From an uncultured Acidimicrobiales bacterium (GTDB lineage Bacteria; Actinomycetota; Acidimicrobiia; Acidimicrobiales; AC-14), in assembly GCA_902805665.1 (NCBI GenBank), contig CADCTB010000004.1, positions 1 to 35,621 on the forward strand: a stretch of 35,621 nt of DNA. The letters are read 5' to 3'. The notes beneath the pieces were generated by a model, which was not told where the DNA came from, did not search any database, and saw only the letters and a program-made list of their open reading frames with translations. Shown here piece by piece: positions 32,461 through 35,621 of the stretch; within the stretch, counting starts at the first letter, position 1, and the number at the start of each line of letters is the position of its first letter. A program made the position numbers and the translations under genes.

Positions 32461-34048
<1,588 letters not shown>

Positions 34049-34064
34049 TCTGAGACCGACGGGA

Positions 34065-34100
34065 TGACCGGCGGCAGGGCGCATGCCCCGCCGCCGGTCA
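34065..34100. terminator. Bidirectional terminator hairpin between glnK and the UPF0016 gene
   Basis: TGACCGGCGGC (34065-34075) pairs with GCCGCCGGTCA (34090-34100), an 11-bp perfect stem, with an inner stem GGGC-GCAT-GCCC (34077-34088). It sits between two convergent genes and includes the stop codon of the UPF0016 gene. There is no T-run. Confidence 0.7.
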
Positions 34101-34667
34101 CTCCCGGATCCCGCCGAGGATCAGGACGGCGCCGAAGACGAAGAACGACACCGCCGCCCCGATCTTGATCGCCCGGGCGGGGACGCGGCTCCCGAGCTGC
34201 CCGCCCACGACAATGGCCAGCGCGTCGGCGGCCACCATGCCGAGCGTCGACCCCAGCCAGGTCCCGAACGCCCCTTCGGTGGTGGCCAGAGTGATGGTGG
34301 CCAGCATGGTCTTGTCGCCCAGCTCGGCCATGAAGAACGCCACGCTGGCCGCCACGACGGCGGACCGGTTCGACCGATCCGCCCTTGCCTCCTCCTCGGC
34401 GGTGAGGGAGTCGCCCCGCAGGGTCCACAGGCCGAAGCCGAGGAAGGCCAGGCCGGCGGCGACCGAGATCGCGTCGGTGGGGAACGCGGCGCCGACCGAC
34501 ATGCCGACCAGCACCGACGCGGCGTGCACGACGGCTGTCGCCACGGTGATCCCGACGAGCACGGGAAGCGCCCGGTAGCGGGCCGCGAAGGCGAGGGCCA
34601 TGAGCTGGCTCTTGTCGCCCAGTTCGGCGACGAAGATCACTCCGAAGCTCAGGAGCAGCGCATCCAT
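34098..34667 (-). CDS. TMEM165/GDT1 (UPF0016) family cation transporter, probable Mn2+ exporter
   Basis: A 189-residue membrane protein with six helices in two similar halves. Each half carries the family motif E-x-G-D-(K/R)-(S/T): VAELGDKSQLMALAF near residue 13 and MAELGDKTMLATITLA near 110. Members export Mn2+ or exchange Ca2+/Mn2+ for protons. The ATG at 34667 is chosen because it starts the first helix and follows AGAGGA by 8 nt; the longer frame would extend into the leader. A yybP-ykoY riboswitch in that leader strongly supports manganese as substrate. Confidence 0.9.
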   Translation of the reverse strand: MDALLLSFGVIFVAELGDKSQLMALAFAARYRALPVLVGITVATAVVHAASVLVGMSVGAAFPTDAISVAAGLAFLGFGLWTLRGDSLTAEEEARADRSNRSAVVAASVAFFMAELGDKTMLATITLATTEGAFGTWLGSTLGMVAADALAIVVGGQLGSRVPARAIKIGAAVSFFVFGAVLILGGIRE

Positions 34668-34743
34668 GGAAGTCGTCCTCTCGGCCCGGAGAAGACGGCG
34701 ACCGGAGCCGCGACCTCGACCGGGCATCCGTTGTCGGGTGCCG

Positions 34744-34840
34744 GTCGAAGGTCTCGCCCACCCGCCAGCAGCGGGCCCGGGGGCCGGGGCTCATCACCCA
34801 GCGTGTCGACCACCCGGCGTAGGACTACTCCCCTTCGCCG
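34744..34840 (-). ncRNA. yybP-ykoY manganese riboswitch in the leader of the UPF0016 gene
   Basis: On the minus strand the leader begins GCGAAGGGGAGTAG (from about 34838) and ends GGCGAGACCTTCGAC (to 34744). GGGGAGTAG and GAGACC are the conserved parts of the yybP-ykoY motif, and CGAAGG/CCTTCG form its closing P1 stem. A TACACT box at 34852-34847 puts the transcript start next to the first riboswitch base. The class senses Mn2+ and often controls this transporter family. About 75 nt of expression platform remain before the ATG, including a possible GACCGG/CCGGTC hairpin; the switching mode is not clear. Confidence 0.8.
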
Positions 34841-34846
34841 AGGCCG

Positions 34847-34852
34847 AGTGTA
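34847..34852 (-). promoter_or_regulatory. -10 box (TACACT) upstream of the manganese riboswitch
   Basis: On the minus strand TACACT lies 7 nt before the first riboswitch base, so transcription would begin at the P1 stem. Confidence 0.45.
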
Positions 34853-34855
34853 CCG

Positions 34856-35208
34856 GCTGCCGGCTATCCCGCGATGCGGCCTGAGCGCTCGCCGTCACCG
34901 GCGGCCCAGGCCATCACACTGCCTTCCGGAGGGCCCGCGGGCCTGCGGTCGCGCGGCTTGACTCTTGTCGGGACGAGCGGCGGGAAGGTTGCGGACGGAC
35001 CACGCAACGGGCCGATCCCGAACGCCAGCACCATCGAGCGGATGGGGCCGGAGAGGGCTCCGGTCGGGTCCTACGCCCCGTCGTCGCTCGCCGCTCAGTC
35101 GTTCGCCTCCCTCTGGGCCGAGGTCGCGGCGCGACTCTGGGCGTGAACCTTCACTGTCCCGTCATGCTCCGGCCAGCTCCCGGCTCCGCCGGAGCCATGT
35201 GGGCCTCC
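34856..35208. other. About 350 bp without a recognisable gene
   Basis: A 90-codon frame on the plus strand (34874-35146) and a shorter one on the minus strand are open, but neither resembles a protein I know and neither has a promoter box or ribosome site at its start. A short inverted repeat GGCTCC/GGAGCC lies near 35182-35196. I cannot assign a function. Confidence 0.4.
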
Positions 35209-35481: not shown

Positions 35482-35621
35482 TTAGGCGAGCACGCTCCGG
35501 AGCAGGTCCAGCCGGTCCGGCAGCGCTCGGTACCAGACCCAGCGTCCCCGCTTCTCGCCCACGATCAACCCGGCGTCGGCCAGGATCTTCAGATGATGGG
35601 AGATGGTGGGCTGGGAGCGGC
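35482..35621 (-). CDS. ArsR-family winged-helix regulator, C-terminal part (cut by window edge)
   Basis: The last 46 residues are visible: the recognition helix SQPTISHHLKILADAGLI, the wing VGEKRGRWVWYRALP, and the end DRLDLLRSVLA. This is the ArsR/SmtB pattern of a repressor that leaves its DNA on binding a metal or another signal. The sensor cysteines, if any, are outside the window, so the ligand is unknown. Confidence 0.85.
   Translation of the reverse strand, partial: RSQPTISHHLKILADAGLIVGEKRGRWVWYRALPDRLDLLRSVLA

Follow-up and report, generated by a model that had tools for sequence, protein, structure and literature searches.

A probable compact form of the yybP-ykoY manganese riboswitch in the leader of an actinobacterial GDT1 exporter gene

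We have analyzed a stretch of 35,621 nucleotides (the window throughout this text) from an uncultured Acidimicrobiales bacterium. Close to its end, on the minus strand, there is a gene of the GDT1/UPF0016 exporter family, which agrees with the transporter family given in a preliminary description of this DNA and is the sole member of the family found in the source genome. The translation contains two repeats, ELGDKS and ELGDKT, of the motif E-x-G-D-(K/R)-(S/T) reported for GDT1/UPF0016 (PMC7380456). We took 34667 as the probable start of the gene, because the Shine-Dalgarno AGAGGA is found 8 nt ahead, whereas an upstream in-frame ATG at 34727 (34665-34727, minus strand), which would yield a 209-aa protein, falls inside a conserved hairpin of the leader. 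Automatic annotation may therefore start the gene too early. An ammonium transporter gene and then a P-II regulator gene (32461-34048, plus strand) converge on the GDT1 gene, and at 35482-35619 (minus strand) lies the end of an open frame resembling, by eye, an ArsR-type regulator and cut by the window end. The features of the gene and its leader are the following:

34098-34667, minus: GDT1/UPF0016 exporter gene, 189 aa (PF01169, E 3.2e-40, two stretches)
34674-34697, minus: predicted RBS hairpin, CGUCUUCUC/GAGAGGACG, enclosing the Shine-Dalgarno AGAGGA (34676-34681); p 0.08 against shuffles in the window
34684-34695, minus: strand 3, UCUUCUCCGGGC, a possible partner of either strand 2 or the RBS
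34714-34750, minus: anti-P1 hairpin, formed by strand 1 and strand 2 (GCCCGGUCGAGG, 34714-34725)
34744-34841, minus: yybP-ykoY aptamer, as matched by our covariance model R1 and by the pair counts of 68 leaders
34746-34751, minus: 3' strand of P1.1, CCUUCG, doubling as strand 1 of the anti-P1 hairpin
34750-34756, minus: CGAGACC, the 3' strand of loop L1 plus the start of P1.1
34760-34776, minus: hairpin P4 (helix 5 of the pair counts)
34777-34817, minus: P3, made up of P3.1, L3 and P3.2 (helices 3 and 4)
34804-34809, minus: core of L3, UCGACA
34822-34824, minus: 5' strand of P1.2, UCC, pairing with GGG at 34757-34759 (helix 2)
34825-34833, minus: GGGGAGUAG, the 5' strand of L1 plus the end of P1.1
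34832-34837, minus: 5' strand of P1.1, CGAAGG (helix 1)
34847-34852, minus: -10-like hexamer TACACT

Inspection of the sequence at 34744-34841 revealed an aptamer element enclosed by a CGAAGG/CCUUCG stem. All the motifs of the preliminary description are present on the minus strand, namely GGGGAGTAG at 34833-34825 (the DNA form of the L1 5' strand), GAGACC at 34755-34750 and the CGAAGG/CCTTCG stem. The -10 form of actinobacteria is TANNNT. With TACACT at 34852-34847, transcription could begin within a few nucleotides of the P1 stem, which fits the placement of the -10 box suggested before. A hexamer of the TANNNT form was found at the matching spacing in 61 of 65 leaders, the window among them (it is absent in three, and the remaining leader is truncated at the end of its contig), and a generic scan for sigma-70 promoters found none in 34600-34960.

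The conservation of the fold was examined in an alignment of 68 leaders (A2), fitted to the structure proposed here. An exact-motif search, used solely for finding candidates, had given matches in 51 of 298 genomes, many of them apparently chance matches in coding sequence. We dropped the rows that were chance matches (L106, L109 and L112, by eye, and L002), the window itself (L003, L097) or duplicates (L098, L118 and L119, of L007, L004 and L005, respectively). Leaders with identical first 60 nt were counted once, giving 65 leader rows; L006 is in A2 but outside these rows. Standard pairs occupied 96.9% of the 1831 cells, and the covariation score, 0.352 versus 0.149, was reached by none of 500 shuffles. 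Changes on both sides were found at 18 of the 27 pairs, and since many of the rows are Micromonospora these are not all separate events. When the partners were slid by one to three columns the pairing fell to 32-47%. The consensus fold of A2 without constraints gave again the topology of P1, P1.2, P3 and P4, with two-sided changes at 21 of 32 pairs. P1.2 was paired in 100% of the leaders and changed on both sides at two of its three pairs. GGGGAGUAG and the L3 core UCGACA were invariant (68/68), and the other side of L1 was C(G/A)AGACC in all 68 leaders, the variable position being G in 64 of them and A in the remaining 4. The folding energy of the window gave no signal over shuffles (z = 0.16; 106 of 200 shuffles folded at least as well).

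The covariance model R1 was built from 20 actinobacterial leaders, with the window among the training sequences, and its score for the window (91.4 bits) is that of a training sequence. Outside the training set it scored L006 with 82.0 bits and the leaders of four TerC genes with 72.2 (L001), 59.4 (L113), 50.8 (L122) and 50.6 bits (L110). It also found two proven riboswitches of Escherichia coli, alx (29.2 bits, E 4.6e-5) and mntP (23.8 bits, E 0.0011), within loci 4.0 and 4.5 kb long; scaled to the whole E. coli genome by our own arithmetic, alx is significant (about 0.003) and mntP marginal (about 0.07). The best other match across 14 sources was 18.9 bits. The leader L161, also outside training, was over the threshold of the Rfam model RF00080 (49.1 bits) and reached 52.3 bits with R1, whereas L140 scored 76.8 bits with R1 versus 28.3 with RF00080. 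Thus, a common profile reaches alx, mntP and L161, and R1 and RF00080 converge on the same elements. These matches to alx and mntP, the L1 and L3 motifs and the covariation support the assignment to the yybP-ykoY family made in the preliminary description, which mentions neither L3 and its adenosine nor the lack of helix P2 nor the alternative pairings downstream of the aptamer.

That description had proposed a search with the Rfam model and counted a score below threshold against the assignment, and the window does lie below it. RF00080 (Rfam 15) reported nothing at the element at its gathering threshold, and raising the E limit to 10 on a 361-base stretch holding it brought no match either. 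Over the whole source genome its only two matches were another element (L001, 23.2 bits) and one of chance level (11 bits), and L001, with the same score, was the only one listed of 20 related loci. However, the positive controls failed as well: the proven mntP leader of E. coli, at 41.6 bits, fell short of the threshold of 45, and alx was not reported at E <= 0.01. We have therefore rejected the negative Rfam scan as a refutation; since the proven leaders are also missed, the silence of RF00080 on the window is no evidence, and its threshold was not treated as defining membership in yybP-ykoY. Its printed consensus, as we read it, does not include the P1 stem.

The binding core resembles that of the known aptamers. 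As in E. coli mntP and in the aptamers of Xanthomonas oryzae and Lactococcus lactis, the L1 motif GGGGAGUAG / GAGACC sits between P1.1 and P1.2, L3 contains ACA with the adenosine, the helices P1.1, P1.2, P3 and P4 are present and a metal exporter lies downstream. The crystal structures described in (PMC6754395) have L1 extruding an adenosine for docking and an invariable adenosine of L3 contacting Mn2+ (ACA48UACU in X. oryzae, UCA41AUUC in L. lactis), to which the A at 34804 corresponds. The window differs from the RF00080 type, besides its score, in the helix P2, which is absent from the consensus fold of A2, and the junction is therefore three-way rather than four-way. The form without P2 is already known and the four-way junction is not defining. 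The alx leader, in front of a gene of the TerC family, aligns without P2 between P1.2 and P3, like the window, and differs in its L3 (UCGUCAUUAC), in having TerC instead of GDT1 and in a longer P4. The mgtA riboswitch of Streptococcus pneumoniae is described as a yybP-ykoY type with a three-way junction (PMC9495176), a likeness by description and not by sequence; in contrast to the window it controls a P-type ATPase, and according to the same source it responds also to Ca2+.

The link with exporters was apparent beyond the window. We examined the best 80 by score of 492 GDT1 loci, and in 62 of these the motif lies 50-137 nt ahead of where the matched gene begins. Among the other 18, the contig of L041 begins inside the leader and 17 have no element; R1 gave nothing in these 18 at E <= 0.001 (L030, L045, L064 and L084, with aptamers identical to others, were omitted from the R1 scan of GDT1 loci). 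The nearest GDT1 homolog, L017 (82% identity), is among those lacking the element in the leader. Reading frames could be taken behind 40 of 43 leaders (none in L117, L137 and L152), six of them visibly out of frame (L141, L143, L144, L147, L150, L154). We scanned 20 of the 40 with Pfam and all 20 belonged to metal transporter families: seven GDT1, seven TerC, three cation efflux, two P-type ATPase and one Na/Ca exchanger. The position in front of a manganese homeostasis or metal export gene is thus common to the window and to these relatives, and (PMC7380456) gives yybP-ykoY as preceding UPF0016 in 328 of 333 strains. In other actinobacteria the same aptamer was seen before Na/Ca exchanger, cation efflux and P-type ATPase genes (L007, L009, L099, L100, L156, L157).

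Downstream of the aptamer the leader offers alternative pairings. In the anti-P1 hairpin, the 3' strand of P1 pairs with strand 2 in 514 of 520 cells over 65 leaders. Both partners are exchanged together at two positions (A-U becomes G-C in six leaders, and C-G becomes U-A in three), and the hairpin beats shuffles at p <= 0.05 in 55 of 55 leaders. L048 had no start codon call, which left 56 leaders including the window; the shuffle tests cover 55 of them, and L024, absent there, entered the strand-swap and pair-count tests through a pattern of its own. In the leader alignment A3 strand 3 was misaligned between groups, and counts of its pairs with strand 2 on A3 were dropped in favor of duplexes computed for each leader and compared with shuffles. 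By this measure the pairing of strands 2 and 3 beats shuffles (p <= 0.05) in 43 of 55 leaders; one position shows a C-G to G-C exchange in 4 of 56, and in 49 of 56 the leader's own strand 3 does better than swapped strands do on average. The stability of the RBS hairpin is unremarkable, exceeding that of shuffles at p <= 0.05 in 10 of 55 leaders. When strand 1 was blocked in the folding, the mean predicted accessibility of the RBS rose from 0.22 to 0.42, with an increase in 35 of the 56 leaders and a decrease in 4.

The window itself behaves differently in these predictions. Its pairing of strands 2 and 3 was not above shuffles (p = 0.325), and with strand 1 blocked the RBS was predicted to become less accessible (0.01 instead of 0.17, GGACGA having been taken as the site). 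The energies, for secondary structure only, were -96.6 kcal/mol for the anti-P1 fold, -89.9 for the P1 fold and -84.2 for P1 with strands 2 and 3 paired; that is, the P1 fold lies 6.7 kcal/mol above the anti-P1 fold and the pairing of strands 2 and 3 adds 5.7 more, tertiary contacts being outside the model. The RBS accessibility in these three folds was 0.22, 0.00 and 0.47, respectively. We infer the translational ON model from the family, because the window's own pairing, accessibility and energies run against it. The translational action put forward in the preliminary description is thus plausible from the anti-P1 and RBS hairpins across the family, which suggest translational control at that level, and finds no support in the folding energies of the window alone.

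The element is very probably a compact actinobacterial form of an ordinary Mn2+ riboswitch that the current Rfam model misses. We consider it likely that it senses Mn2+ in the leader of the GDT1 exporter gene and acts by the translational ON model. Transcription would begin at P1. At high cytosolic Mn2+, L1 and L3 would dock around the metal and stabilize P1.1, which would hold the 3' strand of P1 away from the anti-P1 hairpin; the freed strand 2 could become available to strand 3, which forms the 5' arm of the RBS hairpin, and their pairing would leave the Shine-Dalgarno exposed and the exporter to be made. In the absence of the metal, both hairpins (anti-P1 and RBS) would form and translation would be low. 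Of this scheme, the data show the architecture of the aptamer, its place in the family, the association with exporters and a conserved anti-P1 pairing; that the organism's metal is Mn2+, that the switch works in the ON direction and that strands 2 and 3 pair is what we infer.

A rather unlikely alternative is that the same Mn2+ aptamer acts on transcription, with the GC-rich anti-P1 hairpin, or the loading of Rho onto the leader, stopping RNA polymerase at low Mn2+. Other members of the family act at this level (PMC11087558), and the stability and conservation of the anti-P1 hairpin in every leader compared with shuffles would suit such a role. However, the scan for terminators found no terminator-like site or T-run in the leader, as the preliminary description had said of the T-run, and the RBS lies in a hairpin adjoining the start codon. 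Less probable still is the same fold sensing another divalent ion, or several, for example Ca2+ together with Mn2+. Transport of Ca2+ is also among the activities of the GDT1 and Na/Ca exchanger families, and one of the leaders found precedes a Na/Ca exchanger (L007); S. pneumoniae mgtA responds to both ions (PMC9495176). This reading is opposed by the agreement of the metal-sensing adenosine and of the two loop motifs with the Mn2+ type. That the element is a functionless GC-rich motif arisen by chance, for which the negative RF00080 scan and a single sequence folding no better than shuffles could be invoked, is hardly credible given the two-sided changes at 18 of 27 pairs, unequalled in 500 shuffles, and the independent finding of proven members.

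The distribution of the Mn2+ element is patchy. R1 had matches at E <= 0.001 in 68 of 396 Actinomycetota genomes and RF00080 in 14 of 396 (one over its cut-off), the two samples looking identical by their identifiers and genomes without matches being listed only in part. Four places were common to both, and R1 had no listing for 10 of the 14 RF00080 genomes, so that the models are complementary. R1 matched 12 of 60 relatives, and of nine other genomes of the same genus or family just one (G002, 53.8 bits). Predictions of yybP-ykoY in Corynebacterium glutamicum were tabulated in 2013, one of them observed before terC (PMC3890552), so actinobacterial members are not new. None of the titles and abstracts among the open-library literature matches listed dealt with this compact actinobacterial form, which is no proof of absence. 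It is conceivable, if doubtful, that a compact subclass is widespread in Actinomycetota, preceding GDT1 as well as other exporters, and largely escapes Rfam 15; it would combine a three-way junction with L3 UCGACA and a translational platform of four strands, and its metal selectivity would be unlike that of the four-way type.

That such a switch precedes an exporter is expected, and the practical value of this case is the calibration of RF00080 versus R1: annotation relying on RF00080 will under-call manganese regulation. Besides, the conserved alternative pairings provide a testable model for translational control in GC-rich actinobacteria.

The source genome contains a second element of the family, L001 (1566-1657, minus strand; contig C130:38154-38245), located before a TerC gene (PF03741, E 1e-53). 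It belongs with the window to a common family by its R1 score, given above, and differs in the TerC gene and in its L3, UCGUCAUCC. Among the leaders read, L3 followed the partner gene, with UCGACA before GDT1 and also in the cation efflux and Na/Ca leaders, and UCGUCA before TerC (L001, L110, L113, L122 and E. coli alx).
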